A stretch of 64,000 nucleotides of DNA from Eucommia ulmoides (taxonomy: Eukaryota > Streptophyta > Magnoliopsida > Garryales > Eucommiaceae): NCBI GenBank assembly GCA_016647705.1, contig CM028328.1, forward strand, positions 5,295,311-5,359,310. The letters run 5' to 3'. Positions 5,426 to 42,922 of the stretch are shown here, piece after piece. The first letter of the stretch is position 1. Each line of letters starts with the position of its first letter. Under the pieces are notes generated by a model. It saw only the letters and a list, made by a program, of their open reading frames with translations. It ran no database searches and was not told the origin of the DNA. The position numbers and the translations under genes are program-made.

Positions 5426-5487
5426 TTTTTTATTATTTTTTTTTACTTTTGTGTTTGTTCTTTGTCGGCAAATTCCACTTTTCCTTC

Positions 5488-5497
5488 CTATAAATAG
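5488..5497 (+). promoter_or_regulatory. TATA box of the Gypsy LTR
   Basis: CTATAAATAG fits a plant TATA box and lies about 0.5 kb inside the LTR, where U3 should end. Transcription would start about 30 bp further on. The 121-bp array would then lie in the transcribed part of the LTR. Confidence 0.7.
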
Positions 5498-6790: not shown

Positions 6791-7621
6791 AAATAAAAAC
6801 ATTCGGATTTAAATTCTAATTGGACTTAATCGGATAAGGTACCGTCTTTGGACGGGCGTCTTGGGGTGCTTGACACCTTCCTCGAGCGTAACTGACCCCC
6901 AAACTCTTTAAACGAATCTCTGATTAGACCATATTATTTTTGGAGTCAAATTTTACTTAAGCTATTTTTAAATTATTTTCAAAAAAGAAAAATATGGTGA
7001 CCTAGCACATCATTTAAACCCAATGCTAGGTGGCGACTCCTTTTTCTAAAACAGGCTTAAGTACATTTTAATGAGAAAATCGACGTTTTTAAAAAACCCT
7101 TCTCGTTTTACCAGCGCCAAGCATATATAAACATATATCTATATATATATTTGTTTTTGGTTTTCTGTGGAAAATTGGGGCGCATTCAGCGACCAACTAA
7201 ATTTGTCACTAAAAGTAAGATTTTGCAACGAATGTTATTTGAATAATATACCAAATTGTGTAAAGAGAAACATAAATCTATAAAACATACATTCCAAACA
7301 TATGTAAATGAAACTCCCATAACAAATAAACATGTCTCAACTCATATAACGTAAATAATATCAAACTAAATAAACAATTTTTTTTTTCAAATTCTCAAAT
7401 AGTACATAAAAAACAAAATTGTGGATAGATGTACTAAAATAATCTCATTCTTTCCCCCAAAAAAACAAAGTATTTGTATCAAATATCTTCCCTTGCACAA
7501 AAATAGTCTTCATAATTTCAAATTAACGAACAATTAATCTGCATTAGAAACAAATCAGATAAATCAATAACTCAAATCTTACTTAAAGTACAAGAGGGAA
7601 AATGTAATTTTATTAATTGAG

Positions 7622-18178: not shown

Positions 18179-18489
18179 CACTATGTCATAGCCTGGTTTC
18201 CCAGAGCCGCTACCATGGTTTCTCCTACAGAAAATTTTTACCCAAAACGAATAACCGATAATTTGTAACGTGTAAATCCGAACAAATTTCATTTACTACG
18301 AAGACTATTTTTTATTAAAAAATCGACAATGATAATTAAAATTTATATTCAAAAAAATTATATTCATCTCTTTATCAAATATAATAGTCATCATTTAAAA
18401 TATCACCAAATAAAATCAATCATCTATTTTAATTTAATCCACAAATTATACATATATATAGCGACAAGAATTTAGAAATTCGTTTAATA

Positions 18490-18490
<1 letters not shown>

Positions 18491-18524
<34 letters not shown>
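18491..18524. repeat. Poly(A) run, 34 bp
   Basis: Uninterrupted A run. The homologous position in the other LTR (near 24156) has only a short A run, so it expanded after insertion. Confidence 0.9.
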
Positions 18525-18526
<2 letters not shown>

Positions 18527-19932
18527 AAAAGAAAAACATCTTTTAATTTACAATGTCGTGGCAAAATTTATGATTACCGAATTTATAATTTATAATTTAA
18601 AAATTCGATTCCCACCATTTTCTTTAAATCACTTATCTTAAATTAATTATATTAAAATCGAATATTCAATATTTCCAAAATTGAGATATTTTACAACCGA
18701 CTACGATAATTTTACTTATCGTTTCCTCCGATTATAATGATAAATAATAATTACAATTTTTACAAATAGAAATTTCAAATAAAATATCTCTTCGTCGTTT
18801 GTCCCCGCTGACCCTGCAACCAAAAGTTATTGGGTTGTGAGTCAACACTCAGTAGAACTCCAATCCCTCTAATACATGCATTTAATTAATATAACACAAA
18901 AATCACAGAAGCATGTTTTTCACATAAATTTTTACATTGTCCAAATTATTTCATGTAATATAGCAGGTAAAATATCCACGATCATTTATCACCAATATCA
19001 CACCACGAGACAATTAAATATATATATTAGGAAAGTTTGGAATTCTACCCTTTCCGAATTTTTCGCCGGCTGCGAGACGAGTTTTTAATTTTTATTTGGG
19101 TGATTTGTGTAAAAAAAAAATATTTTTCTTTTTCTTCCCCGTTTCCTGTTTTCTATTCTGATTCTCGCCCATCACCGCTGGGGCGAAGGATCCACCGCCG
19201 CGGCAAACGCCACCCCGTTCCCTGTTTTGCTCTACTCACTGGATTCTCACCGCCGCGGCGACGGCTACCGCATTTGATCACACACATACAAAACACAAAA
19301 ACACTCACCCCGGACGACTGATCGACACCAACTGCCCCTACACCGTTGGCTGCTAACCACCCATGCCACCAACCACCTTCACTGCCGGAGGAACGCCCAC
19401 ACCGATCAACATACACACCGACTACTCTCTCTCTTTTTCTCTTCCTTTGTTTTCTCTTTCCCTTCATTCCTCTTCTTCTTTCTGTTTTCTTTCCAGCCAA
19501 TTAACGATGACATACACATACACCACTGGAGGAGCCACACCCACACACCACCGGAGGAGCCACGCACACACACCATACACAGCCACCCATCGTTAACGAC
19601 ACCCACCGGCGATAAAACACACTCCACCAACTCCGATCCTCTCTCTTCTTGAAATTTGACGACGACACACACCCACACGAAGAACACGAACACACACCCA
19701 CGCTGCGTTTCTGGTTCTCTATTTTGAATTCTCGCCGCCAACGAGTTATCTCTCTCTAACCCACCGCCGGCGACGACTCCGGCGATCAACGACAAGCACA
19801 CCTACGCCCACACACATGCTGAATGACGGGGACACACCCACACAAAACACACAACCACGTACCCAATTAGACGGTCACATACACCTATCGGATCGACGAT
19901 CGCTTCAGACGATGACACATGCAGTCCACAAT

Positions 19933-19969
<37 letters not shown>

Positions 19970-20181
19970 CACACAATCTCTCACCGTAACAGACAGAGGA
20001 ACACACACACACAAACAACGGCAACGTCGGATCTCATCACCCACACGCCGGCCAAACAAACAAACAACCAAAACCCACACCGACGATGAAAACAATGACG
20101 ATCACCCACCACCCACGTCTCTCTTCTTTCTGATTTCTCTATTTTTCTTCTTTTTTGATGTCCTCATAAATGTATGGATGG

Positions 20182-20182
<1 letters not shown>

Positions 20183-20236
<54 letters not shown>

Positions 20237-20317
20237 GACAAAGAGAGCACAAGCCTCACCGACCTACTGTTTTCCTTTTTCCTTTTTTTTTTTATCTTTA
20301 TCTCAATTGTGATAATA

Positions 20318-20366
<49 letters not shown>

Positions 20367-20367
20367 T
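20183..20367. repeat. Microsatellite block: (TA)n(TG)n and (ATT)n
   Basis: TA and TG dinucleotides fill 20183-20235, and ATT trinucleotides fill about 20319-20367. The partner LTR has shorter versions at 25757-25790 and 25873-25890. Confidence 0.9.
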
Positions 20368-20563
20368 ATTTTAATTTTAATTACATAAATCTACCCCTAA
20401 ATTAAGAATTTGAAATCATTTTAGTCCAAAAGTTTACAATTTGCATTTTGAAAATTACTAATTAACTCCTCAAATTTTTAAATTAAATTGTAAATAACAC
20501 AATCTATCCCATATTTTCCTAAATATGTAAAAATGCTTCTTAAATAAAAATTAGAGTCTTACA

Positions 20564-20576
20564 ACCCTTCCCCCCT
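20564..20576 (-). other. Polypurine tract of the family B element (minus strand)
   Basis: The complement AGGGGGGAAGGGT lies directly upstream of the minus-strand LTR start TGTAAGAC. Confidence 0.75.
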
Positions 20577-23500
20577 AAAAGAAATTCCGTCCCGAAATTT
20601 TTGTTTAAAACAATAGGAATTAAAATTTCAGTCAAAATAATAAAAATTCAGAGTCGTACCACACGGGCATGTTAGTCATATTTGATTCTAGAACAATTGT
20701 TTCTTATGTAGGGTCCCGTAACCGCAAGTCACCCATAATTCATAACCAACAATCACTTCCACACATCGCAACATTTTCATTCGTAGTGGTCCACATTGTA
20801 TCCAATAACCAACAAACAAGGTGCACTTTGACCGGTAACACTTAATACAGACAACCAACTATCAAACAATCTCATATTTCTAAATGCTTCCGCTGCACTA
20901 CTCTGATAAAAACAACAGTAAATATAATTTATATCCTTAAAATATCATGGTAGTCTCACTGGATTAGGTCTATCCCATTTCCCATAGGTTTACAACCTTA
21001 GTAATTTTTCCATAACCAACATTTATCCATTTCATCCAATATTTCCAATCAACCAGTTCGCAACAATATTTTCATCCAACATTTAAACCAACAATACTCG
21101 CAACCAATATCATAAATAACAAACAGCCCAACTCCACGTGAACTGGCCCGTGAGACCAAAAATCATCAATCGCAATATTCGCATCCAAAAGTTCAATAAT
21201 CTCGTAAACATTTCATAAATTCTACCACAATCCAACTTCAATAATGAATTTTTCGCAATATATCAAATTCACATAAACATATTTCAAAACACATAAATAT
21301 CACCAAACCATATAAATACGTATCAAAACACTCAAATACATGTCAACCATATAAATACGTCTCAATCCAGATAAAGACACCTCGACATATAACCACGTAA
21401 AAATATGTATCGACATACATAAATACGTCACAACTACGAAAATCCAACACGTCACAAAAAGTCAATAGTCATTGCGTAAAAAAATATTATATCAATAAAT
21501 TTCAAACATACTCATCAACTCAAGGATAATTCAGATTATCATTTCCCCATGAAATTTCAATGATCCTACATTCCGACTCCGCCTAATATTAGTAGTGGAC
21601 CAATACATATAGTTGAGTTATTTTTATCAGTGTACTGTCTTCGTAGTATAAATGTATTTTATGGATCAAGTTTTTATCAAAATCCCATTTCCAATAAAAT
21701 GTAACCACTTCGACGGTATCCAAATCTCAACAATATATCACCAACGCACCATCAATATTAAAATCTCAATCAAATATTTTCAACATAGAATCAGTTTTAA
21801 ATCGACTAATCAACTCACGTGTATATAATAAAATAATATACTTCCTTGCCAGCCATAGGATCGTTTACCTCACGATCGAGAGTTACGACGGTATTGCAAC
21901 CTGTACGACTGTGTCATCTACAGTGACTAGCAGTCGTAACTTGTACGACTGTGCCAACTACAGAGACTATTAGTGCCAGGGCCATTCATTATCCCAAATG
22001 GTAAGGGTACCACCCGCAAGATTTGCACTCTTGACAGGTCAATTCACATCTCTTACGGGAAGAAACTATGGCATAGTCGGACCAAACATCACTCTCCACC
22101 TTAAAAAAAAAACGACTTGATCCAAAAATCCCTTAAAACCAACACGATCCAAAAATTATTTTCTACATTTTTAATATCAACTTGGTCCAAAAACAATCCT
22201 CTTCCACTTTTAAAATCAAATCTTACTTGATCCATATAAGTTGCAAATTCATACATTTTTAAATAAATACGTTCTTCACATTTTATATGAAAATATATTT
22301 TTTGTAATTTATAGAAGACAGTGCACATGTTACCTCCAAAATACAAAAAGAATTTATGGATCAAGTATTTTTTTTTCAAACACCACTTTTCAAAATATAC
22401 TATAATATACAACCGCATACCGTGTTGAAAATCCAGTTCCACTGCTACCAAGGTAATAAAATAATATATTTAAAATACTCAATCCAAATATTTTAAGTTG
22501 ACCAATCCACACATTTTAAACCCACCAACCCAAACATTTTAAGTCAATCCATTTAAAATAATATATTTAAACAAACCAATTCAAACAGTTCATCGTATAG
22601 TAAAATATCGCACACCACCTCCTACTAGCCATCGGATCATTTAACCTCATGATCGGAAGTTACGATAGTACCGTGACCTGTCTAACTGGGTCATCTAATG
22701 TGATCAACAGTGTTAGGGCCATTTATTTTCCCTAATGGTAGGGGTACCACCCGTGAGATTTGCACTCCAAACGGGTCAATCCACATCTAAGAGGCCATCC
22801 TCCTAGCGAGAAGAAATCCATATCTCGTAGGCCATACCCACCTAACGAGAAAAAATCCACATCTCGTAGGTTTCCACCTAACGAGAAGAAATCTATATCT
22901 CGTAGGTTTTCACCTAATGAGAAGAAATCCACATCATGCCGGTCATATCTGCCGGAGGAGAAGAAACCACATCTCATAGGTCTCTGCCTAACGAGAAGAA
23001 ATTCACATCTCGTAGGTCTCCGTCTAATGAGAAGAAATCCACATCTCGCCGGTCATATCCATCGGACGAGAAGAAAGTTATGGCATAGCAGGATAATAAA
23101 ATCATTTTCCACCCTTTTTAAAATTTTACTTGATCCATGAATCATCGTAAAACCGTCCATTTTATCAACCCTTTTTTTCTCTCCATAATTTAATACGAAA
23201 ATATAATTTCATGATTTATATAGAAGACAGTATACACCTTTAAATTAATAACTCAAATTTAGCGACAATTTTCAATGGTCCACAACTAACACGGCACTCA
23301 CTCAGACTTATTTAACTCATTACCGAATAGTTTCATTAATGCACTGTCATCTCAGATGTTAATATGTTCAAATTTAAAATGATAGGAACCAAAGTGAAAT
23401 AATGGTAATAACACATTGGTGCAAGGTGTCTAACCTCCCAAAAACATAACGGAGACGTCAATGCCTGTATATATATTATTGACCCCATAATATTATTCAC

Positions 23501-23830
23501 CTTTATTTCTACGTATATATGTGTGAACAATTGGTGTACATATGAAAATATTAATGCACATATATCGCCACTTGATAATATCACGTAATTCTAGATGGGG
23601 ACAAATACGACACATAGATCACATATCATGAATTCATGAAGAGCACATAAATCACGTATTATATTAACTTTATACATAAACAATAAAAACATTTCACTTT
23701 TTTTTTTCGCAATTTCCACTAAAATTATTATTATTACATATTAACAGTTTTATTATGAATTATGGGTATCATAACCCCGGTTCAAAGTGCTCGCAAATCA
23801 GAACTCTGACTCTGCAAAATCTATAACCTA
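20577..23830 (-). other. Non-coding internal region of the family B element
   Basis: This is A/T-rich sequence without gag or pol motifs on either strand. A block with CACGATCGAGAGTTACGACGG at 21868 recurs at about 22651 and, diverged, at about 58406 in the solo LTR. A tandem array lies at 22782-23078. The AUG-initiated frame at 22101-22451 on the minus strand is rich in Phe, Tyr and Lys and shows no recognisable domain. Confidence 0.7.
22782..23078. repeat. Tandem array, 35-39 bp unit, 8 copies
   Basis: Units carry CACATCTCGTAGG and CACCTAACGAGAAGAAAT. Two copies (starting near 22927 and 23041) carry a variant with GCCGGTCATATC. The array is in frame on the minus strand and would encode repeats around DFFSLGG, but there is no surrounding gene. 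Confidence 0.88.
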
Positions 23831-23846
23831 AACTCCGATATCAACC
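23831..23846 (-). other. Primer-binding site of the family B element (minus strand)
   Basis: The complement of 23831-23846, GGTTGATATCGGAGTT, resembles the TGGTATCAGAGC site for initiator-Met tRNA and directly follows the minus-strand LTR end GTGACA. Confidence 0.55.
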
Positions 23847-26088
23847 TGTCACGGCCCGGTTTCCTAGGGCCGCTATTATGGTTTCTCCAACAGAGAATTT
23901 CTACCCAAAACGAATAACTAATAATTTGTAACGTGTAAATCTGAACAAATTTCATTTACTACGGCGATCTTTTTTTATAAATATATCGACAACGATGATT
24001 AAAATTTATGTTCAAAACAAATTATATCCATCTCTTTATCGAATATAATAGTCACCATTTAAAATATCACCAAATAAAATCAATCATCTATTTTAATTTA
24101 ATCCACAAATTATACATATATATAGCGACAAGAATTTAAAATTTTGTTTAATATGAAAAAAATATCTTTTAATTTACAATGTCGCGGAAAAATTTATGAT
24201 TACCGAATTTATAATTTAAAAAGTCGATTCCCACCATTTTATTTAAATCACTTATCTTAAATTAATTATATTAAAACCGAATATTCAATATTTTCAAAAT
24301 TGAGATATTTTACAACCGACTACGATAATTATACTTATCATTTCCTCCGATTACAATGATAAATAATAATTACAATTTTTACAAATAGAAATTTCAAATA
24401 AAATATCTCTTCGTCATTTTGTCCCCGCTGACCCTGCAACCAAAAACTATGGGGTTGTGAGCAACCGCTCAGTAGAACTCCAACCCCTCTAATATATGTA
24501 TTTAATTAATATAACACATAAATTGCAGAATCATATTTTTCGCATAAATTTCCACATTGTCCAAATTATTTCATGTAATATAGCAGGTAAAATATCCACG
24601 ATCATTTATCACCAATAGCACACCACAAGACAATTAAATAAATATATTAAGAAAGTTTGGAATTCTACATTTTCAGAATTTTTCGTTGCCACGAGACGAG
24701 TTTTTAGTTTTTATTGGGGTGGTTTATGTAATTTCTTTTTCTTCCCCGTTTCTTGTTTTCTGTTCTGATTTTTGCCCGTCGCCGCGGCGAATGCCACCCC
24801 ATTCCCTACTTTGCTCTACTTACTAGATTCTCATCGCCGCCTCTACCGCCGCGGCGACGGCTACCGTATCTGATTACACACATACAACACACGAAACACT
24901 CACCCCGGACAACTGATCGACACCAACCGTCCCTACACCGTCAGCTGCTAACCACCTATGCCACCAACCACCTTCACTGCTGGAGGAACGCCCACACTGA
25001 TCAACACACACACCGACTGTTCTCTTTCTCTTCCTTCATTTTCTCTTTCCCTTCCTGTTTCTGTTTTCTTTCTAGCCAACTAACGAGGACACACACACAC
25101 ACACCACCGGAGGAGCCACACATACATACCACCGAAGAAGCCACGAACACACATCATACACAGCCACCCATCGTCGATGACACCCACCGGCGACGAGACA
25201 TACTCCACCAACTCCGATCCTCTCTTTTCTTGAAATTTGATGACGATACACACCCACACGAAGAACATGAACACACACCCACACTGCGTTTCTGGTTTTC
25301 TATTTTGAATTTTCGCCGTCGGCGAGTTTTCTCTCTCTAACCCACCGCCGGCGACGACTCCGGCAATTAACGACGAGCACACCACACCCATACACATGTT
25401 GAATGACGGGGACACACACACACAAAACACACAACCACGCACCCACCTTCAACGGTCACATACACCCACCGGACCGACGACCGCTTCCGACGACGACACA
25501 TGCAGTCCACAATCACATACACACACACACACACACACAGAACACACAATCCCTCGCCGAAACAGACAAAGGAACACACACACACAAACAACGGCAATGT
25601 CAAATCTCATCACCCACACGCTGGCCAAACAAACGGACAATCGAAACCCACACCGGCAATGAAAACAATGACGATCACCCACCGCCCACGTCTCTCTTCT
25701 CTTTGATTTCTCTGTTTTTCTTCTTTTTTCATGTCCTCATAAATGTATGGATGGATATATATGCGCGCGCGCGTGTGTGTGTGTGTGTGTTGACAAAGAC
25801 AGCACAAGCCTCACCGACCTACTGTTTCCCTTTTTCCTTTTTTTTTTTTTTATCTTTACCTCAATTGTGATAATATATATATATATATTATTTATTTTAA
25901 TTTTAATTACATAAATCTCCCCATAATTAAGAATTTGAAATCATTTTAGTCGAAAAGTTTATAATTTGCATTTTGAAAATTGCTAATTAACCCCTCAAAT
26001 TTTTAAATTAAATTATAAATAACACAATCTACCCCATATTTTCCTAAATGTGTGAAAATGCATCTTAAATAAAAATCAGGGTCTTACA
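23847..26088 (-). mobile_element. 5' LTR (minus strand) of the family B element
   Basis: Forward reading starts TGTCACGGCCCGG and ends GGGTCTTACA, followed by the duplication CACTA. It is colinear with 18184-20563. Confidence 0.88.
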
Positions 26089-27006: not shown

Positions 27007-27011
27007 GCTCT

Positions 27012-27944
27012 TGATGTAGCAGAAAATAAATAAAGAACGAGTTTACCAAAATTTCTTGGGATGAGTCGCGGACTAGATCGCTCTCTTTAAGACGTTTTGC
27101 GGCTCTGCCCAAGAACGTGCTAGCAGTGTATCAGCCCCGTTGTCCCCAGGATAAAACAGCTAAGAATCACCTCTGTCTAGAACTTTCTTTGCACAACAGA
27201 AGGCCTGAATACTAAACACCCACTCACTGTTTGAACAAACAAACAGATTGCTCGGAAATCGAAGTTTAAAAGAAATAAAACTATTTTTGATGAAGAAGCT
27301 GTTTCAGATCAAGACGAAGATTGTTTTTTTTTTTTTTTTTTGTGTTCTTTAATTTGAGAAAAAATAAACACTATTTATAGGAGAGAAAAAAAAAAAACCG
27401 TTTGAGAATTTTTTTAAAACCGAAAATAAAAAAAACGTTTTAAATAATTTATTAAAACGTTTCAATTTTAATGTTTTTTTTTTATTAAAACGTTTCAATT
27501 TTAACGTTTCAATTAAAACGTTTTAAATAATTAATAAATTAAAAACGTTTTGTTTTTTTTCTCAACGGTTCAAAAAAAAAAACACGTTTTGTTTTTTTTA
27601 TTTTTTTTAATTAAACTGTTTTTTTTAAAAAAAATATTTTTAAATAATTTTTTTCTAAAAAATAAATAAGTACCACCTCATCACACGCGCGACTCGACTC
27701 GACTCGGACGGCGGCGGCGGCGGCGCGCGCGTGGTAAACCGGTAGGGATGTAACTCCTCTCCCCTCCACAAAATGTGGGTACCCCTTGGGGCACACCCCA
27801 AGTGTCTCACATACCCCTAGATATCCACTTTAATTTCACCTCTCCCAACCAATGTGGGACAAAAGGATTTGAGGGAAAAAATCAATTTGACACATTTGGC
27901 ACTTTCTATTCTAAAAATTAAATTAAAATTCATTTGTTTCAACA
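27012..27944 (-). mobile_element. 3' LTR (minus strand) of the Copia element
   Basis: Forward reading starts TGATGTAGCAG and ends TTTGTTTCAACA. It contains a minus-strand TATA box at 27371-27380, A and T tracts, and a CG-rich block (GACTCGACTCGACTCGG then a GGC repeat, about 27687-27733). Confidence 0.93.
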
Positions 27945-28502
27945 ATCCCCCTCTTGAATTTTTAAAAACAATTTTTTTTTTCATCGAGCAGTATAATTCA
28001 ATATAAGATTGTGCATAAGAAAAGATGTCTATCGACTTGAACCTTTACATAGTGAAGATGCTTTAGATTATACTAGAGTAACTCGTAGTTTTGAACTCTA
28101 TCTCTAACTACATCACACACACAACCCTATTAGGGTGTAGTCCAAAAACCCGTACTTTACGACCATGCACGTGTATCCCAGTATAGTGAATGCTCTAGAG
28201 AATTTTGCCCAAAATTCCATAGGAAGCGGCCACACTTTCACATTCACATAGGTGAATCTATCAAGAGTACTCTTATAGCTAGGTACTCCACTCCAAAATA
28301 GAGTATAGATCTCATTAAGAGTTAATAAAAACTCAACCTTCGATCGCTTCAAGATATCATGCTTCAAACAACACATTTATGAAATAGAACTCAAATTTAT
28401 AGCATGATTTTTCTCATATCACTTCATGAGTTGTTATTACCCTTTGAACCTATTTATTGGGATCTCCAGTCTATAGGTTGGGTTTCCCTCACAAGTGACT
28501 CG
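27945..28502 (-). other. PPT and 3' untranslated part of the Copia element
   Basis: AAGAGGGGGAT (complement of 27945-27955) is the PPT directly before the 3' LTR. The rest is about 0.54 kb between the pol stop and the PPT. An 87-codon minus-strand frame at 28113-28376 shows no recognisable domain. Confidence 0.7.
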
Positions 28503-30983
28503 TCAATCTATGGGCTTGAGTCCCATTCCTTTCGAGGTTTTGTAAACCTTTTCTCGAACTAATCCTTTCGTCAAAGGATCGGCTAAGTTATCATCAGACC
28601 GTATATGATCCACTCTCACAACCCCTGTAGAGATATACTCCCTAATAGTGCTGTGTTTGCGACGCATTTGTCGCTTTTTTCTCTTATAATAACGGTTCTG
28701 AATTTTTGCAATAGCCGTGGTACTATCACAATGGATCAAGATAGCTGGAATCGGTCTTTCCCATAAAGGGGTATCAGAAAGCAGGCTCCTTAACCACCCT
28801 GATTCCTCGCTAGCCGAAGCTAGTGCAATCATCTCAGACTCCATAGTAGATTGAGCCAAAATAGTCAATTTCTTAGATTTCCAAGAAACAGCTCCACCAG
28901 CTATACTAAATATATAACCTCTAGTTGCCTTGGAGTCATTTGAAAGGGTGTTCCAATCAGCATCGCTATATCCTTCCAGAACGGCGGGAAACTTCTGATA
29001 ATGTAATTCAAGGTTCATAGTTCTCTTTAGATATCTCATAATCCTATTAATAGCATGCCAATGTTCAATACTAGGTCTACTTGTAAACCTGCATAGTAAT
29101 CCCACAGCATACGCTATGTCGGGCCTAGTGCAGTCAGTGGCATATCGGAGACTGTCTATGATGCTCGCATACTCAGTTTGTCTAACACCGTCACCGGTGT
29201 TCTTGAACAACTTCACATTAGGGTTAGAAGGAGTACATGCTGGTTTACAATCAAAATAATTGTATTTCTTTATAATCTTCTCTATATAATGAGATTGGCC
29301 CAAAGAAATTCCATGTTTAGACCTAGTTATTTTAATACCAAGGATTACACTTGCTTCACCAAGATCTTTCATATCAAAATTAGCACATAGCATGGATTTT
29401 ATATTATTCACAACATGAATATTGGAACCAAAAATTAGCAAGTCATCCACATAAATACATATAATAGTGCAAACATCATTTTCAGATTTATAGTAAATGC
29501 ATTTGTCACTTTCATTTACTTTAAAACCATGTGAAATGACTAGATTATCAAATTTCTCATGCCATTGCTTAGGTGCTTGTTTCAAACCATAAAGATATTT
29601 ATCTAATTTGCATACTTTGTTTTCTAGACCAGGAATAACAAATCCTTCAGGTTGGTCCATATAAATCTCTTCTTCTAATTCACCATTCAAAAAAGCAGTT
29701 TTAACATCCATTTGGTGCACAATAAGATTATGAATTGCAGCAAGAGATAAAAGTACACGAATAGATGTAATTCTAGAGACAGGTGAGAAAGTATCAAAGA
29801 AATCTACATTCTCTCTTTGTCTAAACCCTTTGGCTATAAGACGAGCCTTGTATTTATCAATGGTTCCATCGGGATTCAATTTCTTCTTAAGAATCCATTT
29901 ACATCCTATTGTTTTACAACCAGGAGGTAAATCTACCAAATGCCAAGTTCTATTTGACTCGAGAGAGTCTAACTCGTCATCTATAGCCTCTTGCCATAAA
30001 CTGGCATCTATAGAGGATAATGCCTCTTGGAGGGTAAGTAGATCATCTTCTAAGGTATATGCATAGAAATCCGAACCAAAGTCTTTAGCTATATTAGGTC
30101 GTTTACTCCTTCTAGGTTCAATATCTAGTTCCTTATTAGATTCATTAATCCTAATGATAGGTTCATTACTAGAAGTCGAGCTCCCACTATTCTTCAATTT
30201 GAAAGGAAATTTATATTCATAAAAATCAGCATCATTTGATTCAATGATAACTTTATCTTTCAAATCATAAAATCTATAATCTTTGCTATTTACCGCATAA
30301 CCAATAAAAACACATTCATAAGCTTTACTGGCAAGTTTTCTTCTTTTGGGGTCAGGAATTCGAACATATGCCAAACAACCCCAAGTTTTAAAATAAGACA
30401 AATTTGGTTTCTTATTTTTGAAAACTTCATAAGGTGAAATTTTACTTTTCGATTTGGGAACTCTATTAAGTACATAGCAAACCGTTAATAAAATTTCACC
30501 CCACCAGTGAGAAGCTACACCGGAGTTAAGTAAAATAGCAACTACTGATTCAGCAAAAGTTTTATTTTTTCTTTCAGCCTTACCATTCATTTCAGGAGAA
30601 TACGGTGCAGTTTTTTCATGAATAATTCCATGAGATTTATAAAAATCAATAAAAATATCGGAATCATATTCTGTTCCTCTATTACTACGTAATCTCTTAA
30701 TTTTCTTATTGCATTGATTTTCAATCTCAGTTACAAAATTCTTAAACATTTCAAAAGCTTCACTTTTATTTTTCATGAGATAAACATAAGTAAAATCAGA
30801 ACAATTATCTATGAATGTAATAAAATACCGTTTACCATTCCTAGTTAAGACTCCATCAAATTCACAAATATCAGAATGTATTAAGTCAAGAGATTCAGAT
30901 TCTCTAATTACTAATTTATGAGGGGTTTTAGTAATTTTAGCTTGACTACAAAATTCACATTTTTCAAAATCATTCAAAGACAA
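28503..30983 (-). CDS. Copia pol fragment: integrase, RT and RNase H (826 codons)
   Basis: The frame is open for 826 codons, but the first codon is TTG and no upstream protease or gag remains. It opens inside the integrase zinc finger (CEFCSQAK, residues 9-16). The integrase core has Asp38 (HSDI) and Glu137 (AERKN), but the second catalytic Asp is Asn101 (RSNRGTEY instead of RSDRGxEY), so strand transfer should be dead. The GAG-pre-integrase part is lost. RT spans about 330-570 with YVDD at 511-514. RNase H follows with YSDADW and STMESE. The protein ends shortly after [10 protein letters not shown]. The frame is well kept for an element lacking gag, so the deletion may be recent or the RT may have been used in trans. 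Confidence 0.9.
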
Positions 30984-31060
30984 TTTAGGAATTAGTTCTA
31001 AGTTACTTATTTAAAATCGTGATCAGCAGACATCTTAGCAGATATTGAACATCTTAAAAT

Positions 31061-32000
31061 TGATGTAGTAGAAAATAAATAAAGAATAAGTTTACCAAAA
31101 TTTCTTGGGATGAGTCGCGAACTAGGTCGCTCTCTTTAAGACGTTTTGCGGCTCTGCCCAAGAACGTGCAAGCAGCGTATCAGTCCCGTCGTCCCCAGGA
31201 TAAAACAGCTCAAAATCACCTCTGTCTAGAACCTTCTTTGCACAACAGAAGACCTGAATACTAAACACCCACTCACTGTTTGAACAAACAAACAGACTGC
31301 TCGGAAATCGAAGTTTAAAATAAATAAAACTATTTTTGATGAAGAAGCTGTTTCAGATCAAGACGAAGATTGTTTTTTTTTTTTTTTGTGTTCTTTAATT
31401 TGAGAAAAAATAAACACTATTTATAGGAGTGAAAAAAAAAAAACCGTTTGAGAATTTTTTTAAAACCGAAAATAAAAAAAACGTTTTAAATAATTTATTA
31501 AAACGTTTCAATTTTAATGTTTTTTTTTTTTATTAAAACGTTTCAATTTTAAACGTTTCAATTAAAACGTTTTAAATAATTAATAAATTAAAAACGTTTT
31601 GTTTTTTTTCTCAACGGTTCAAAAAAAAAAACACGTTTTGTTTTTTTTTTATTTTTTTTAATTAAACTGTTTTTTTTTTAAAAAATATTTTTAAATAAAT
31701 TTTTTCTAAAAAATAAATAAGTACCACCTCATTACACGCGCGACTCGACTCGACTCGACCCGGACGGCCGCGGCGGCGGCGCGCGCGTGGTAAACCGGTA
31801 GGGATGTAACTCCTCTCCCCTCCACAAAATGTAGATACCCCTTGGGGCACACCCCAAGTGTCTCACATACCTCTAGATATCCACTTTAATTTCACCTCTC
31901 CCAACCAATGTGGGACAAAAGGATTTGAGAGAAAAAACCAATTTAACACATTTGGCACTTTCTATTCTAAAAATTAAATTAAAATTTATTTGTTTCAACA
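31061..32000 (-). mobile_element. 5' LTR (minus strand) of the Copia element
   Basis: Forward reading starts TGATGTAGTAG and ends TTTGTTTCAACA, followed by GCTCT. It would be the promoter LTR for the pol frame at 28503-30983. Confidence 0.93.
31427..31436 (-). promoter_or_regulatory. TATA box in the Copia 5' LTR
   Basis: The complement reads CTATAAATAG. It is conserved in the other LTR at 27371-27380. It is placed so that transcription would run leftward through the rest of the LTR into pol. Confidence 0.7.
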
Positions 32001-32976: not shown

Positions 32977-33811
32977 TCATATATATTTGTTGACATCGTG
33001 AGGGAAGATGATGCCGGCACTCCATCGGCAACCTTTAGATGCTGCCGCCCTAGGACAATGTACGTAATTGGTTCCCCATATATCGAGGCAGATGTAGAGC
33101 TCATACAGCAAATCATGTGTCTGGTTGTAGTATCTACATGACACATAGATATCCTTTTTGTTCACATGCGGTTTCACTGCCGCCTAAAAATCGCCGATTT
33201 TATAAGCCATGTCATCCCGCGGCGTAATATTGGCTCTCCTCAATATCTTCAGAAAATCCAGCTTCTTTGATTCGCGGAGCAACGTAACCAAATAGGTTTT
33301 GCAGTCCATCTTGTTTGTTGAGCAAATTCCGTGATGTTTCCATTCATGTATCCATAATGCCTTTGCCTCCCTATCAGCTACAATGGATGGCCATTCTTGC
33401 TGAAGAATCTGAGTCAAACCTTCGTCGGACAACTGTGCATTTCAAGAGAGAGAGAAAGATAATATTACAAACAATTAAAACTGAAAAAAAATGAAAAAGA
33501 AAGAAAACATCACTTACCACTTTATAAATATCTTTTTTTCTGTTTTCCATTTCCAGATCACATGTGAGCGTAGTGCCGTAGGGATGTGCAGGCCACATGC
33601 CATGAGTAGCGAACTGTGGAGTGAGGTTGTTGATGCAGTGGTTCTCAAGACAGAAAGAAGGGCTCCAAGTTTTCACAAGTTGGAAATGGTGGTGTTGGGA
33701 GACCACCATAGTTGGCAATGAAGGAAACTGGGGTGCTGGGCAAAATTGGGGCATCATGGCAAACAAGCAAAATTGGGACATAACCACCAACAAGATGAAT
33801 AACAAATTCAT
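32977..33811 (-). pseudogene. S-RNase-like T2 ribonuclease, premature stop
   Basis: T2 RNases cleave RNA and are secreted. S-RNases of this family act in the style and enter pollen tubes. Exon 1 (33811-33518, 98 codons) starts with a hydrophobic signal peptide (MNLLFILLVV...) and contains FQLVKTWSPSFC and the first active-site block FATHGMWPAH with His70. A GT-AG intron (33517-33433, 85 bp, donor GTAAGT) follows, in the variable region where S-RNases carry their intron. Exon 2 has the second active-site block IHEWKHHGIC (Glu128, His132). The family Lys next to that His is His131. Codon 181 is TAG (IGDF then stop). The same frame then continues 68 codons with family-typical Cys residues (VSCRYY, YICLDIWG, VHCP, GCRW) to a TGA at 32977-32979. 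Total length fits the family, so one nonsense change broke an otherwise full gene. Orthology to S-RNases is inferred. Confidence 0.85.
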
Positions 33812-33871
33812 TTTCAGAGTTTTTTCTTGGAAACACTTGAAAACTTCCGATAACTTGGAAGCACTTGGCTT

Positions 33872-33883
33872 CCCTTTTTATAG
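33872..33883 (-). promoter_or_regulatory. TATA box of the RNase gene
   Basis: The complement reads CTATAAAAAGGG, 61-72 bp upstream of the ATG. This is a normal distance for a short 5' leader. The ATG context is CTGAAAATGAAT. Confidence 0.7.
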
Positions 33884-34364
33884 AGTGGAAATTAATCTCT
33901 TGGTGTCTTTTTCTATAGGTGTGTATTATATTCAACCAAGTTTCTACATTTTGCATGCATGCATGCACATGGGCATTTTATCTTTATTGCATTTTTTAGG
34001 ATTAATTTTATTTTTGTCTGCACCTCATTTGCAACAGTTAAATTTTCTGATAAGGTCAAACAGTGAGAGTTAATAAAAATCTGTTAATTGATATTTTTAC
34101 CCTTTAAAGATTTTATAGGGTCTAATTTAATACTATTTTACAACTTAAGGGTCTATGTTGTATTTTTTTCATCTTGCTAAAAACTGGGTACATTTCTCTT
34201 CCTAATTTTTAATCCATTAGTGAACTTTTTCACTCTTTAATCACTTAAATTAAAAAAATATATATATAGAATTCTAATTTATTTTTATCGTTTAAGTCAA
34301 ATTAACAAGATCAAATTCACCTGGTTTCGGAGGAAAAAAAATCTTGAAAATCCTTTGACCAATT
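33884..34364. other. RNase upstream region between the two S-type genes
   Basis: This interval of about 0.5 kb separates the RNase promoter from the end of the F-box gene. GCATGCATGCATGCACATGG at 33953-33972 contains overlapping RY-type GCATGC motifs. Part of this stretch (about 33923-33995) recurs at 42855-42922. No gene is seen. Confidence 0.6.
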
Positions 34365-35440
34365 ATTGCATTCCCAACTAGACTTTCCTCCATTGATTGG
34401 AACAAGACTCTCCTTGTATTTAAAAATATTTTTTTATTGTAAATCCCTTGAAATAATCTTTTCATGCATGAAGAACAATAATTTCACTAGAATTCGGGTT
34501 GTACAAAATCAAATTATCAGAAGTTTCAAGAAAAAACTAATAATCCTTCCAAAATCCATAAAATATACGAGATTCTGGACAATCTATAATTACATGATTT
34601 TTGGTCCAACACCCCTCTTCTTTCATTAACCATATATCCCATTGAGACATCGCAAAGAACTGCCAAATGAAAAGAGCAATGGATTCATTGCAAAGGGCAA
34701 GATTACCCTTGCCTGTACTGTCATCAGCCAACAGTGGTATCTCTCGAAATTCCTCACTTCTCATATCAAATGTTAAAATATAAAGGTTTTTGTCATGGCT
34801 GACCCATACCAACCAGTAATAAACCCCTTTAGCATAGGTATTCGATATGGGCCAATTCATGAAATTAATTGAAGAGAAATGAAACCAGAAGTGTCTCCAA
34901 GAATCACAGCCATGCGTGTACACTGAAATAAAGACCTTTGTAAATTTCTCTCTCATCCGAAAAGAACTCAATTGAGACCCAAACACAAAGTTGGGATAAA
35001 ATGAATTCAAGTACGAGGGTATGTCATGACTTTGGGAGGGTTGAGGAAGGGGCTTAAACTCTCTGGTTGCTGGATTCCAAAATGCCAAGTGATTTTTGTC
35101 TATGAAAACACAAAATAAACCATTTAAGGGACGAATGAGACGTATAGGAGTACGAGGCAATTGTAAGTACTTTGGTTGCTTAAAGGTGATGGCATGAGGG
35201 GGTCAGATCAGAGCATTGGACAATTGCATGTCTCGCTGGAAGGAGAGCAATAGCACAGAGGAGCATACATGCCTCATTTCTCTTGTCTTGGTAGTGTTGA
35301 AGAATGAAAGTGGCGCTTTTGATTAATGAGTACCATGATTTGCAAACACACTTAAATCACAATAAGGATTTCACGGAAAGTAGGCAAAGAATCTCAGTTA
35401 GTATATCTTCCGGAAGATGAAAATCACCATCACCCCACTT
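34365..35440 (-). pseudogene. F-box protein gene, S-locus F-box type, broken
   Basis: SLF/SFB proteins are pollen F-box subunits of SCF ubiquitin ligases that act on S-RNases. The minus strand at 35440-35310 reads an F-box (HLPEDILTEILCLLSVKSLL, then a stop, then FKCVCKSWYSLI). The stop TGA at 35357-35359 replaces a conserved Arg and is explained by one CGA-to-TGA change. A 1-bp frameshift near 35200 leads into a 208-codon frame (35160-34537) with the F-box-associated domain. This contains NPATREFKPLPQ, a long middle with conserved Trp residues (SWRHFWFHFSSI), GVYYWL, and FDMRSEEFREIPL. After GFWKDY comes TAG, then LETSDNLILYNPNS, the usual C-terminal block, then another stop. No clear start Met precedes the F-box. 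It lies upstream of the RNase on the same strand. Confidence 0.8.
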
Positions 35441-36327
35441 AAAGTTTACACACAAGGAAAAAAAAAATTAAAAATAAAAAATAAAAATTATAATATATTT
35501 GTTTTAACAAAAAAAACAAAAAACAAAAACACAAAAATAAAATAAAATATGGAGTTACTATTTGTACTCCAACTATATCCTCGTACATTCACCATTTTTA
35601 ACTCCTTCGAATTGTGTTAAAATCTTTTACAAATTCAAGAATAAAATTACTCTCGGCTTATATTTAAATATTTAATAGGAGAACAAAATCAAAGAATGAA
35701 AGAAAAAAAAAAAAAATAAAATAAAAAATTATCATCATAAACAAACAAACAAACAAAAAATAGAACTAAAAAATATATTTCTATTCTGAAATAGAAATAT
35801 CGTTTTTTCACATATTTTTATTTTATTTTGGGAATAGAAACATAATTTTAATATAAAAATGTTTATGTTTTAAAAACAAAAGAGAAATATTCTTTTTTGT
35901 TCTAAGATTTTTATTTGATTTCAAGAACAATAATATATTTTTGTTATTTTTTTTTTTTTTACATTTCGACAACAAAATTATTTTTTATTAATATTTAACT
36001 CTAATATGAAAATATTTAAATACTAGTTGTGCGTAACCCACCCCTCACAACTCCAACGTAGCCTGCACATCTCCCCACCCCCGCACGTGCTTCGGCTCTG
36101 GAAACGACGAATCCCCCCAAACCTATTCGCCTCCCCACACCCACCCGCACCCGCACCCGCACCCGACCCATGCTCTAGCAAAGATGAACGACCAACATCC
36201 CACAATCTATATACACCAAATACAACCACCACCTAGCCTTGCTGCCACCAATCCTTGCCACAGCTCCGCCCCTCCTTGATCCGTGATTCTATCCCCCGTC
36301 TAAAGTCTTTATATATATATATATATA
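35441..36327. other. AT-rich intergenic stretch with a GC-rich end
   Basis: 35450-36010 is A-rich, low-complexity sequence without a gene. 36022-36300 is GC-rich and includes a (CCCGCA)n-like run at about 36144-36168. Both strands have 69-codon frames there, but neither shows a recognisable domain. The Helitron begins at 36328. Confidence 0.5.
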
Positions 36328-36358: not shown

Positions 36359-38707
36359 CGAAAAAAAAAAAAAGAAAAAAAAAAACCCCTATAAAAACTG
36401 ATATAACTTCCCCTGTTTATACAACATTTTACAATTGTTTTATTAAAAATCAACAATAATTGACATTTAAATATCAATATCTAATAACACAGATATTCAG
36501 CTATTAAAATAATACAACTACCAATCCAAATCTCATTAGTATTTATTTGTAGAGAATGTTTTTTTTTTTTTGTATATAAGTAACAATTGAACATCAATAA
36601 TCAATTATATAACAATAATAGCGAACAATCGGGTCCCATAATCAGATAAAATTTTCAACTCTTTTTCCCAAATAAACACAAAAATAACCACACAACCAAT
36701 AACTTGTATATAAAAATTTTGACATAACCCCCTTTGTTTATGCAACATTTTCAAATTCTGAACTCCTGTTTTCAAATTAACACAACCAATAACTTTTAAA
36801 CACGATATTAACCAATACAATTATAACAAACAAAATAAACACCACCAAAGTTTCGAATGAACAGTAACACAAAAAATTACGAATGAACAATAATACATAC
36901 TTTGTGATATGAATTTGATAAACACAACTAATAACAAAACAACCAATAACGAATAAATATAAACTTAATAAAATAACACCACCACCCAAGACACTTAAGC
37001 CCACCATCCAAGGCTCCTAGAACTTACCTTAAACATATATCATTAAACCATAAATTAGCTTCATCAGATTTTAAAATATTTAGGATGTCACATGTATGTA
37101 TATTGGCCAATGAGAGACAAACACAATGCACGTCAATTTTACAAATAAATAAGTTACTATAAAATTGCGGACAATTTGAATTAAATTAAAATGAAGCAAT
37201 TACCTCATGATTGTACCCCCATCAATTTATCGTCATCTTATTTTGTCGACCTACCTAAATCCATAATAGAAATAAGATAAATCAATAATATATATACATC
37301 TATCTATTTAAATGTTGAAGTATTTTTAAATCATAATTAGTCCAAGCGCATAACATTTAAAAAAAAAATTGCAATAAATGATTGGCAAAAAGAATTCAGT
37401 AAAACTTTTTAATTCTCCAATTTTATATAACAAAAAAACAATAAACAAATGATTAGTAAGTACTTAATCACAAATCCAAACAAAAAACATTCATGTCTCA
37501 TATCAAATAACTTAAATTAAACAAAATCTGGATAAACTATAAATCCATAATCCTTGAAAATTGATACATTATTATAAATGAAAATAAAAACGCTAACAAT
37601 ATCTTAGTTTTACCTCGGATTGAATGGTAGTTGTGTTTTTTATCCATGGCAATCAAATACATATCGTGAATTGCATAATAATTAATAAAAAATAACTATT
37701 TAGGAATTAATATTGTGAATTTCATTCGTCTAATCGAAAAAAATTAACAGAACAACGGGGCATAAGTGAGGACGTTGATAGTGTGGTAAGACATACCTAG
37801 TTCAGGGTCCCCAATACTCAAGAAAATATGCCCAAACCATTAAAGTAATTGCTCATACAAACAAAATTCAACCATCATTGACAAAACAAAGTACGGAATC
37901 AATTGAAAATAATTGAAAGGGGAAGATTCATATAGAAAATTTAAATTAATAATAAAATTAAATAACCATCACCGATTTGCCTAAAAAATTTAGAACTAAT
38001 CATCAAATTCATCAAAGATTATGGGTAATTAATGCGGTAATGATGAATTGAGTTAAGGAGAGTGTTTTTATTCTCAAATTTAAGTTTTTGTAACAAAAAA
38101 TAAAAGTAGAATAGAAAAACAAATCTAGTAACAATCCTGTTTTGTTCCTAGAATTTAAAAGTATCAGGGAAAAGAACAGAAATTTAGAGAGATGAAATCA
38201 TGGGTGGAGGTTAAAAGAGAGATTGAGATTGAGAACTATTGTGAGAGAGATTACCTAGTCATAAACGGTGATGGCAATCATTATGAAGAGAGAAAAATGG
38301 GACGGCAAAGAGAAATCATCATTGTGGTGATAGTCATTTGCCAGCGGTGAAATCTATGAGATGTCAACTACTTAGGTTATCTATGAGATGCATCGTTCCA
38401 GCTGAAAATAAGGAAACAAAACAACCACGTGTTCGGGTAGACTATTCATATGTGATAGATGAAAATCTTAATGCCAAAACAAATAGAAAATGATTGGAAT
38501 ATTTAGAAAATGATGTAGGAAATAATAAAATAAAACAAATTATACGATTTACGCATAACCAATTGTGAATTTTCAACAATTTTTTTCGTTAAAACTCCCC
38601 ATTCTTCCTCTATAAAAGCAATATGCATCCTAAAGTAGGTTTTCCATTGCTAAAATGTTTTTTCAAATAAAATATTTTATAAAACTACACGATATGATAT
38701 CAACTGC
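36359..38707. other. AT-rich Helitron interior
   Basis: I see no gene or clear repeat here beyond A and T tracts. Minus-strand frames at 36605-36820 and 36777-37007 are rich in Leu, Ile, Val and Phe and look like AT-rich artefacts. Confidence 0.5.
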
Positions 38708-40180
38708 AATTTTAATTCATCATTTTTGAACCCTGACCTAAAATCCTCTGACCAGAGCAAAGTAAAAATCTAATTATCAAGTGCAATCGTGCTCAAATTT
38801 AAAGCATAAATTCCAATGGAACCGTTCCTTTTTTTTTTTTTTTTTTCCAGGAATTAAAAAAAAAAAATGTATTAAAAAAACATCATTGAACAAATAGAAT
38901 GTAAACACAAAGAGTGCAGAAAGAATAATAAAATCCATGAAAGTAATACATACCCAGAGGTGTTCTTTGTACTTCATTACTCTTAAGTACCTTCCTTGTG
39001 TCTCCTCCAACTATCCGTCGTGTAAGGGGCGAGAAATAGAAAAATCAAAAGAAAAGGACTATGGAATCATGCTGAGGTAATATATAAACATATCACACGA
39101 ATGATGTGTGAGCTATCATTTGACAAAATACCAAAGAAAGAATGATAAATGTGAGTAATTCAAAAAATCTGTGTATTCAACTAAGTTAGAGACTTCATTA
39201 GCTCGTACATACAAACAGGAATTTATTCTTAATCTTATTCTCACGAAGAAGCATTTAAGGACAACGGGAACAAATGGGATCTTAAAACTATACACCAGTT
39301 CATAGCTTGAGGGAAAACAATTATACGTTCTAATTCCATAATATCAAACACAACCCAATTATGTTCCTATTCTGATCTTAAAAATTCAGAATAGATGGGA
39401 ACAGAAACACCAATCAAATGCTATTTGTAGATTATGAAAACAATCCCAACAATTAATCAAAGTTTGAAAAAATGCCCTAATAAGAAAAACAAATATTCAT
39501 CGTAAGAATGAACAAAGAGTTGGAAAGAACTTACAGCAACAATAGCATTCTTCATCCTCAATCAATGCCTCTTTGCAGCTTCCCAACTCCCGGTTTCCAT
39601 AAACGAACAATATGTTCATAAAAACATCCTTAAAAAAAAACAGTGTTGTGGCATCTGAGAGAAGGGCAGAGGAAGCGGTGGCGTGCTGGTGGCTAAGAGA
39701 AGACAAAGGGAGCGAAGAAAAGGCGGGACAGAGCCACCCCGACCATCACCATCCAGATCCGCCCACCGCCGGCCATCACCATCCAGATCCGACCACCTCG
39801 AACGTCATCGCCCCCAAATCCGACCACCTCGAACGTCATCGCCCCCAGATCCAACCTCGCCACGATCACCGCCGGACATCGCCAACCAGACCGTCGCCGA
39901 ACTTCACTACCTTCAAATCCGACCACCGCCGTCTCGATCTGGCCATTTTGAACCAGATCGGCAGTGAAATCGGGAGCAGTGAGTGAAACGATGGTGAGCG
40001 GCGAGATCGGCAGCCAGATTCGGCGGCGAAGGCAATGGCGAGATTCGCCGATGGAGACGGTGAGCTGCGGATTCGATTTCGGCGACGGCGAGGGGACGCG
40101 AAGGCAATGGCGACAGAGATGGCGACGGTGAGGCAGATCGGGTGAGAGTGAGGGTGAGGCAGAAGGTTAACAGAGCTACA
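38708..40180. repeat. First copy of a 1,472-bp tandem duplication
   Basis: From AATTTTAATTCATCATTTTTG (about 38709) the sequence repeats with a constant offset of about 1,472 bp from about 40181. I noted only a few differences, such as A-tract length and single transitions at 39392/40863 and 39910/41382. It includes exon-like minus-strand pieces with donor-like GTATG near 38955 and a GC-rich leader-like segment at 39700-40150. I do not recognise the encoded peptides. Confidence 0.93.
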
Positions 40181-41655
40181 ATTTTAATTCATCATTTTTG
40201 AACCCTGACCTAAAATCCTCTGACCAGAGCAAAGTAAAAATCTAATTATCAAGTGCAATCGTGCTCAAATTTAAAGCATAAATTCCAATGGAACCGTTCC
40301 TTTTTTTTTTTTTTTTTTTCCAGGAATTAAAAAAAAAAATGTATTAAAAAAACATCATTGAACAAATAGAATGTAAACACAAAGAGTGCAGAAAGAATAA
40401 TAAAATCCATGAAAGTAATACATACCCAGAGGTGTTCTTTGTACTTCATTACTCTTAAGTACCTTCCTTGTGTCTCCTCCAACTATCCGTCGTGTAAGGG
40501 GCGAGAAATAGAAAAATCAAAAGAAAAGGACTATGGAATCATGCTGAGGTAATATATAAACATATCACACGAATGATGTGTGAGCTATCATTTGACAAAA
40601 TACCAAAGAAAGAATGATAAATGTGAGTAATTCAAAAAATCTGTGTATTCAACTAAGTTAGAGACTTCATTAGCTCGTACATACAAACAGGAATTTATTC
40701 TTAATCTTATTCTCACGAAGAAGCATTTAAGGACAACGGGAACAAATGGGATCTTAAAACTATACACCAGTTCATAGCTTGAGGGAAAACAATTATACGT
40801 TCTAATTCCATAATATCAAACACAACCCAATTATGTTCCTATTCTGATCTTAAAAATTCAGAACAGATGGGAACAGAAACACCAATCAAATGCTATTTGT
40901 AGATTATGAAAACAATCCCAACAATTAATCAAAGTTTGAAAAAATGCCCTAATAAGAAAAACAAATATTCATCGTAAGAATGAACAAAGAGTTGGAAAGA
41001 ACTTACAGCAACAATAGCATTCTTCATCCTCAATCAATGCCTCTTTGCAGCTTCCCAACTCCCGGTTTCCATAAACGAACAATATGTTCATAAAAACATC
41101 CTTAAAAAAAAACAGTGTTGTGGCATCTGAGAGAAGGGCAGAGGAAGCGGTGGCGTGCTGGTGGCTAAGAGAAGACAAAGGGAGCGAAGAAAAGGCGGGA
41201 CAGAGCCACCCCGACCATCACCATCCAGATCCGCCCACCGCCGGCCATCACCATCCAGATCCGACCACCTCGAACGTCATCGCCCCCAAATCCGACCACC
41301 TCGAACGTCATCGCCCCCAGATCCAACCTCGCCACGATCACCGCCGGACATCGCCAACCAGACCGTCGCCGAACTTCACTGCCTTCAAATCCGACCACCG
41401 CCGTCTCGATCTGGCCATTTTGAACCAGATCGGCAGTGAGATCGGGAGCAGTGAGTGAAACGATGGTGAGCGGCGAGATCGGCAGCCAGATTCGGCGGCG
41501 AAGGCAATGGCGAGATTCGCCGATGGAGACGGTGAGCTGCGGATTCGATTTCGGCGACGGCGAGGGGACGCGAAGGCGATGGCGACAGAGATGGCGACGG
41601 TGAGGCAGATCGGGTGAGAGTGAGGGTAAGGCAGAGGGTTAACAGAGAGAGTGAG
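40181..41655. repeat. Second copy of the 1,472-bp tandem duplication
   Basis: It is nearly identical to the first copy. The boundary with unique sequence is at about 41655, where the first copy instead joins the second at GTTAACAGAG. The copy nearer the Helitron 5' end continues into AGAGTGAGACGGG and the terminal region. Confidence 0.93.
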
Positions 41656-41823: not shown

Positions 41824-42764
41824 CAAAGGGAGAGAGAGAGATTGCCGGAGAATTGTCAAAGTGTCGACATTGTCATCAAGCACATAAAAAATACACTATG
41901 GCCCCTTATGTTTTTGAATAGTGTTAAAATAGTCCCTATTAAAATCTTTAAATGTTATAAATATAATTTATTATTAAGTAATAATTTTTATTTGACTCTT
42001 AGTGTTTAACAGTTAAAATTAATGTAAAGCTTAACCATTACACTCAAGCTTTAAATACAGGAGTGCAATTGGAGTCATGAATACCACATAAGTACAAAGT
42101 ATAATTTGGCCTAACTACATGGGTGCAAAATAAAATTAACCCTATTAAAGTAGCAAACTATTGTGTGTCTGAATTAATATAAAAATACCATGGTTAGCAA
42201 GCATTTAATATCTAAATCAATAATATATATATATATATATATACTAGGTAGATAGTTATTTTTTATGTAATCTTGATTTATTTGTTTTTTATTTAAGGTA
42301 TTACTAAACTAATATTCATCATCAAAAAGCTAAAAATTAAAATTAAAATTAAAATTAAAATTTATTAATTAAAAATTTTAAATAATGCACAAACAACACA
42401 TGTGCCACATGCGCTTTATATATAATATAAATTTTAGTTACTAGAATAATGTTGTTGTTGCCTTAAATATCTGTTAATAAAATTGTGCATTCATATTTTT
42501 TGTTACTAAAAGAAAAAGAAGAGCATATCTTTTGGGAGAGATCCGATATGAAACCGTAAAAGAAACTTTTTCAAAATAAATCTATAGATACAATAATTAT
42601 TTAACATTTATATTTCATATGGATATGAAAATCATTGGCGTGTGTATATCGAATTAAATTGTAGAACATGTGCATTTTTTAAAAATAAACAACAACAGGT
42701 ACATTGTTGGCCTATATATATATATATATAGGTAAAGGTCCTATGCTTCCAGATAACCGAGAGA
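41824..42764. other. AT-rich intergenic stretch
   Basis: It holds TA repeats near 42222-42243 and 42713-42731. I see no gene. The stretch separates the Helitron from the RNase relic. Confidence 0.5.
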
Positions 42765-42922
42765 GAGAATGACTGCATCAGCAACCTCACTTCACAGTTC
42801 GCTACTCGTGGCATGTGGCCTGCACAACCGCTCTTTTCGTCTCATGTTATCTTATGTATTAAATTCAATCAAGTTTCTAAATTTGCATGCATGCATATGG
42901 GCATTTTTTTTATTGCATTTAC
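42765..42922 (+). pseudogene. Rearranged fragment of the S-RNase-like gene
   Basis: 42765-42836 reads on the plus strand as the part of exon 1 around the first active-site block: ENDCISNLTSQFATRGMWPA. It closely matches the complement of about 33569-33640, but the catalytic His is Arg (CGT). Directly after it, 42855-42922 matches about 33923-33995, the RNase upstream region, in forward orientation. Relative to the intact gene the two parts are therefore inverted against each other. No other exon part is present. It shows that an S-RNase-like sequence was duplicated locally and then scrambled. Confidence 0.75.

Follow-up and report, generated by a model that had tools for sequence, protein, structure and literature searches.

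The RNase and F-box genes of the window

The window analysed here, a stretch of 64,000 nucleotides from the Eucommia ulmoides genome (assembly GCA_016647705.1, 946.7 Mb; contig CM028328.1, C4:5295311-5359310), carries a T2 RNase gene and, upstream of it on the same minus strand, a gene for a protein with an F-box and an F-box-associated (FBA) domain. In RNase-based self-incompatibility, S-RNase, a class III T2 RNase, is the pistil determinant, and SLF/SFB is the pollen determinant. An earlier note, made from the sequence of the window alone, had taken the two genes for an S-locus-like pair, either an S-locus haplotype or a decayed duplicate. Below we describe what is left of both genes, where their relatives lie in the genome, and which of these origins the relatives favour.

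The T2 RNase gene (33811-32977, minus strand) has one intron. Exon 1 (33518-33811) contains a start codon, a hydrophobic N-terminus and the active-site block FATHGMWP (33613-33590), and exon 2 (32977-33432) contains the second active-site block, WIHEWKHHGICS (33354-33319). Between the two blocks lies the intron (33433-33517), which measures 85 bp, is bounded by GT and AG and is in phase 0. The gene’s single lesion is an in-frame TAG at 33184-33186, which removes the last third of the product. When its three open pieces are compared with the Pfam family Ribonuclease_T2, they score, in order, E 8.7e-5 (exon 1), 3.1e-15 and 0.054; the middle piece is above the curated cut-off, and the first and third are below it. 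With this Pfam evidence, both blocks located and the intron delimited, the description of the gene in the earlier note stands; the N-terminus, named there as a signal peptide, is hydrophobic and by eye resembles that of the relatives on C11. Furthermore, the window and C11 RNases share their splice position, and the last 12 bases of the intron are identical in the window gene and two of the C11 genes.

The F-box gene extends from 35437 to about 34343 on the minus strand, with the F-box at 35437-35237, the FBA frame at 35202-34537 and C-terminal remnants down to about 34343. Measured against the open copy on C17, it has accumulated eight lesions, of which three are in-frame stops and five are indels that shift the frame. 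The F-box domain itself is interrupted by a stop in frame, and its halves score 19.7 and 18.3 bits against a Pfam cut-off of 20.5; the FBA_3 match (E 5.3e-8) is above the cut-off, and in the open C17 sister both domains are. The gene therefore has the two domains of an SLF/SFB gene in a frame that is no longer intact. From the end of its remnants to the RNase start the distance is about 0.53 kb, close to the 0.55 kb first estimated. Homology to the F-box copies at C17:41.908 Mb (82% DNA identity across 1.8 kb) and C1:34.39 Mb (80%) covers 34236-35996 on the minus strand and ends before the RNase. Since the RNase frame ends before its last third and the F-box gene carries eight lesions, the pair, judging from its sequence, can no longer work as S-RNase and SLF, and it was rightly said that both partners are broken.

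Relatives of both genes in the genome

Related sequences are numerous, and all match counts from our genome searches are lower bounds. The Pfam T2 RNase search gave at least 61 exon-level matches, many of them clustered (C17 1.6-2.1 Mb, C11 8.8-9.9 Mb, C51 and others). With the window’s exon-2 piece as query there were at least 21 matches, the best after the query itself being nine places on C11 with 42-54% identity. The window F-box piece found at least 60 matches, many on C11, headed by C17:41.908 Mb (76% amino-acid identity), C1:34.39 Mb (72%) and C1:41.711 Mb (64%). Two more lie just left of the window, at C4:5.264 Mb (62%) and C4:5.286 Mb (41%), and in total three F-box loci of the window’s kind were found within 66 kb on C4.

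The two families also lie together elsewhere. The 62 RNase places (the 61 Pfam matches and C1:41708756) and 60 F-box places were merged at 10 kb into 42 and 41 loci, respectively. Six of the 41 F-box loci have a T2 RNase locus within 10 kb, where uniform placement would give 0.04, and 11 of the 41 have one within 25 kb, where it would give 0.10. These counts include the window pair, and the finer one, at the level of 41 loci, is inflated by tandem arrays; when clusters within 1 Mb are merged, 4 of 13 F-box loci still have an RNase within 10 kb (expected: 0.11). RNase and F-box neighbours occur at C1:41.7 Mb, on C11 and on C51, and a search with a C51 F-box adds the neighbourhoods at C8:73.13 Mb and C15:5.31 Mb. 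The pairing of RNase and F-box gene in the window is not due to chance.

S-lineage RNase genes are described as having either one intron or two, position 5 being the usual site (PMC5598434, PMC4438004; further criteria are drawn from PMC4451870 and PMC8325692). The window RNase has one phase-0 intron, the equivalence of which to position 5 was judged by eye. It also lacks amino-acid pattern 4, which all five class I rows of our tree possess; its absence is not specific, however, the pattern being missing from the non-S RNase MC1 and from all seven C17/C8:67 rows as well, and in a loose, unanchored test it matches the S-RNase SF11 itself near the C-terminus. The isoelectric point (pI) is 7.68 for the product up to the stop and 8.75 for the piece behind it, compared to 8.28 and 8.46 for the intact C11 relatives, and the stop blurs any comparison with the basic range of 8-10. 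Among four active-site motif variants, a match in the literature text was obtained for FTTHGLWP only, in a study on Fabaceae (PMC4451870).

For the RNase tree we used 33 rows, 28 of them from the plant’s own genome, compared to the 61 Pfam matches and C1:41708756; L076 (the RNase on C15), the second of the RNase copies in L035 and a scrap at 42.77 kb of the window were dropped. In this tree and the F-box tree, broken genes were joined end to end from their pieces, with X at the stops. The window RNase pairs with a ruined RNase at C1:41.708 Mb (support 99/96), after which the C11 RNases (92/82) and those of C1:41.0/C8:73 (100/97) join. The earlier note had proposed to place the gene by its grouping with S-RNases or with other T2 RNases, and the outcome is divided. 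Forcing the window RNase and the C1 scrap to group with the five class I rows, that is, three PDB chains that we take to be class I and two own genes grouping with them, is rejected by the approximately unbiased (AU) test (p = 0.00026); no class II RNase was identified among the RNases compared. Forcing SF11 to group with the window, C1 scrap and C11 RNases is rejected too (p = 0.0005). SF11 itself groups with the C51/C16 RNases (96/92), or with three C51 rows once six rows are removed (94/87). It should be noted that the groups tested were named after inspection of the trees, and that SF11 (PDB 1ioo) is the sole S-RNase reference, sits on a very long branch of 1.27 and represents a very divergent class of proteins. 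The window RNase is thus not class I and fits the pattern of an S-lineage gene, while (as far as SF11 stands for them) it does not group with known S-RNases and its reading frame is not intact.

Of the 32 rows of the F-box tree, 25 belong to types A, A2, B, C11 and C51, and the remaining seven are other FBA genes. These rows compare with 60 matches of the window F-box query and 17 of another search, and the broken C51:291 F-box (L061) was left out. Type A consists of the window gene and its sister at C17:41.908 Mb (99/97), joined by C1:34.39 Mb (99/94). Type A2 unites C4:5.264, C17:41.933 and C1:41.711 Mb (100/100), and type B unites C4:5.286, C17:41.943, C1:41.703 and C10:5.857 Mb (100/100). 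In all three types the C4 and C17 copies are nearest to each other (99/97, 97/88 and 91/84 for A, A2 and B), with C1 outside. Types A and A2 together (99/90) join eight C11 F-boxes at 100/100, and the 25 rows of all five types, along with C3:38.98, are set apart from the six other FBA genes (98/97). No SLF was among the PDB matches of two F-box proteins. On C17 the A-type frame is open; its dN/dS against the C1:34.39 copy, in which the frame is broken close to the end, is 0.36. Open B-type frames are present on both C4 and C17, with a dN/dS of 0.61 between them. Judging from these open frames, some of the F-box genes appear to have survived the loss of their RNase partner.

A probable duplicated and decayed S-like locus

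Taken together, we consider it very probable that the window pair goes back to a duplicated S-like locus that has since decayed, a known kind of locus, and is no S-haplotype. It has the features of a type-1 S-like locus, in that a class III-type RNase is closely linked to an S-like F-box gene and that paralogues of both occur elsewhere in the genome. Between window and C11, the F-box has a synonymous divergence (dS) of 0.50-0.63 (three open C11 copies), and the RNase one of 0.51-0.58 (two intact C11 copies). Since both partners are about equally far from the C11 array, they were probably duplicated together, although such equality is what the co-duplication of a linked pair predicts and no proof of it. 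An ancestral linked unit of a secreted class III-type RNase and an SCF-type F-box receptor was probably duplicated as a whole, after which the copies decayed differently, each losing other parts. On C4 the RNase is truncated and, among the F-box genes, type A is dead, type A2 broken and type B open. C17 has open A- and B-type F-box genes, with no RNase found beside the A copy, and C1 has the scrap of a ruined RNase, type A2 as an open frame, and types A and B as broken copies. By analogy with the families involved, the ancestor’s role might have been that of type-1 self-incompatibility, in which a stylar RNase is countered by an SCF F-box receptor, or another one.

Similar loci have been described before. 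According to Zhao and others (PMC8774079), S-like loci arose by duplication of S-loci and have an S-like (class III) RNase in tight linkage with S-like SLFs, and Lv and others (PMC9250077) report S-like loci in several families. In Antirrhinum, a type-1 S-like locus lies on chromosome 7, where a stretch of 33 kb contains S-like-RNase, SLFL1 and a pseudo-SLF (PMC8774079). Like the C4 locus, it is separate from a larger array and combines a class III-type RNase with a small number of closely linked SLF-like F-box genes, including a pseudogene; it has likewise been interpreted as a duplicated, decayed S-locus region. In contrast, the window RNase is truncated too, and related F-box sets are present on three chromosomes. 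S-RNase lineage 1 genes of Malus and Prunus similarly adjoin an F-box gene outside the S-locus, but include putative functional genes (PMC4438004), unlike the window RNase. In Fabaceae, S-RNase lineage genes are surrounded by S-pollen-like F-box genes (PMC4451870), and as in Eucommia the S-lineage T2 RNases are many and some contain stops; the F-box neighbours there were sought within 0.5-1 Mb, whereas the window pair is 0.53 kb apart. With a functional type-1 S-locus (S-RNase plus SLF, SFBB or SFB) the window shares both gene families, their linkage and the repeat-rich DNA. It differs from it in that both genes are dead, F-box genes are few, several related loci exist per genome and the RNase falls outside the SF11 group.

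Several observations weigh against our interpretation. The RNase scrap at C1:41.708 Mb occupies only 44% of the tree columns, and its divergence from the window RNase is uneven, with a dS of 0.49 in exon 1 and 0.28 in exon 2. Once six rows are removed, the tree no longer resolves the order among the window, C11 and C1:41.0 RNases, and the outgroup of the F-box tree consists of long rows that do not fall on one side of a branch. The RNase has one lesion and the F-box gene eight, so that the two need not have died together. Furthermore, about 4 kb of sequence to each side of the copies at C17:41.908 and C1:34.39 Mb yielded no RNase, so that C4 is the only place where an A-type F-box is seen next to an RNase; this adjacency may be original and lost elsewhere, or it may be local. 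The C1 set is moreover split between 34.39 and 41.7 Mb. Lastly, the stop codons were read from one assembly and may be alleles or sequence errors.

Could the window instead be a non-functional haplotype at the plant’s active S-locus? The single intron, the absence of pattern 4, the surrounding F-box genes and the retrotransposon-rich surroundings would all suit such a haplotype, yet we regard it as very unlikely. The same F-box types recur on C17 and C1, much larger RNase/F-box arrays are found on C11 and C51, only three F-box loci of this kind were found within 66 kb, and the RNase does not join SF11. Because of the F-box sets on C17 and C1 and the larger arrays, C4 is one of several related loci and no unique S-locus, and from these loci we infer that it lies outside the S-locus itself. 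An active S-locus would have an intact RNase and an intact F-box gene at a single locus per haploid genome, which is not what C4 presents. Of the two origins in the earlier note, the decayed duplicate is therefore the one that is supported, and the S-locus haplotype is not. That two unrelated pseudogenes came to lie side by side is hardly conceivable: F-box genes are abundant in plants, and the A copies on C17 and at C1:34.39 Mb are without an RNase within about 4 kb, but 6 of 41 F-box loci near an RNase against 0.04 expected, the further pairs at C1:41.7, C8:73.13 and C15:5.3 Mb and on C11 and C51, and the matching dS all argue otherwise.

What could be different is the history of the unit. 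It is possible, if not what we would expect, that the RNase/F-box unit never took part in self-incompatibility and that the window holds the dead copy of a paralogous module with another role, for instance in defence or tissue-specific RNA turnover, which would differ from a decayed S-like locus in its ancestral role only. The rejected grouping with SF11 (AU p = 0.0005) points in this direction, as do the open A- and B-type frames on C17, with no RNase found beside A and a dN/dS of 0.36 for A against C1:34.39, and the Fabaceae study, in which S-lineage RNase/F-box neighbours are expressed in tissues outside self-incompatibility (PMC4451870). On the other hand, the SF11 result depends on one S-RNase reference from a very divergent class.

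If the pair is the remnant of a duplicated S-like locus, it would make a clear case of a linked RNase/F-box locus that was duplicated and then decayed piecemeal, with no RNase found in one copy and a dead F-box gene in another. Such a case is relevant to the way in which self-incompatibility disappears following duplication. The pair also calls for caution, since an S-RNase-like gene adjoining an SLF-like gene is no proof of an S-locus. The window locus by itself is an ordinary relic.

Other RNase/F-box loci and the surroundings of the pair

The array on C11 (8.8-9.9 Mb, with further members at 5.39 and 13.97 Mb) is an expanded set of class-III-type RNases and many F-box genes, many of them broken. 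Two of the nine C11 RNases fetched are intact, with a pI of 8.3 and 8.5. With these intact, basic RNases and its many F-box genes, C11 is a better candidate than C4 for the S-locus or its relic, though no more than a candidate. C51, a contig of 1.075 Mb, has three near-identical, open, one-intron RNases, all ending in HDEL, an endoplasmic reticulum-retention-like tail, with a pI of 6.8 for the one computed. They lie among 14 F-box copies with 79-100% identity to the query, of which six lack internal stops. The grouping of these RNases with SF11 and the many F-box genes suggested C51 as the true S-locus, an idea we dropped because of the HDEL ends, the pI of 6.8 and the seven F-box tree rows being near-copies of each other. 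At C8:73.128-73.130 Mb and C15:5.31-5.32 Mb, RNase and F-box copies adjoin each other, several with internal stops. The cluster on C17 at 1.6-2.1 Mb is large and contains very divergent T2 RNases, in which the cysteine of the second block is replaced in five of the six rows used (HGVY, HGRY, HGRH).

RNase/F-box units thus occur in at least six places (C4, C1:41.7, C8:73.1, C11, C15:5.3 and C51), with two distant RNase lineages. It is a doubtful, speculative idea that they multiplied as a multi-locus poison-and-antidote system of which the window is one dead locus; if several of these loci were active, the plant would hold such a system.

In the window itself, there is also a second RNase exon-1 scrap, not mentioned in the earlier note, on the plus strand at 42765-42830 (77% amino-acid identity over 22 residues; 91% DNA identity over 65 bp). 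Beside it, also on the plus strand, a piece at 42459-42724 resembles sequence that lies upstream of the F-box copies on C17 and C1 (77-90% over 155-293 bp), and the two are probably what is left of another copy that has been rearranged. A Ty1/copia-type long terminal repeat (LTR) retrotransposon (27011-32000, minus strand) ends about 1 kb past the RNase; it has RVT_2 and rve domains and LTRs at 27011-27944 and 31060-32000 that are 95.7% alike. Retrotransposon domains were detected in six of the eight other window reading frames tested against Pfam, for which reason ‘repeat-rich’ is a fair description of the window. A tandem direct duplication at 38704-41648, with a unit of about 1472 bp and 99.4% identity, is either very recent or an assembly artefact. 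Tandem arrays with units of about 64/132 bp and about 120 bp occupy 4269-6848, and in 18184-26088 there are long direct repeats at a spacing of about 5.6 kb, most of them with 85-96% identity; C-rich stretches and long CA-repeat-like reading frames occur there too.
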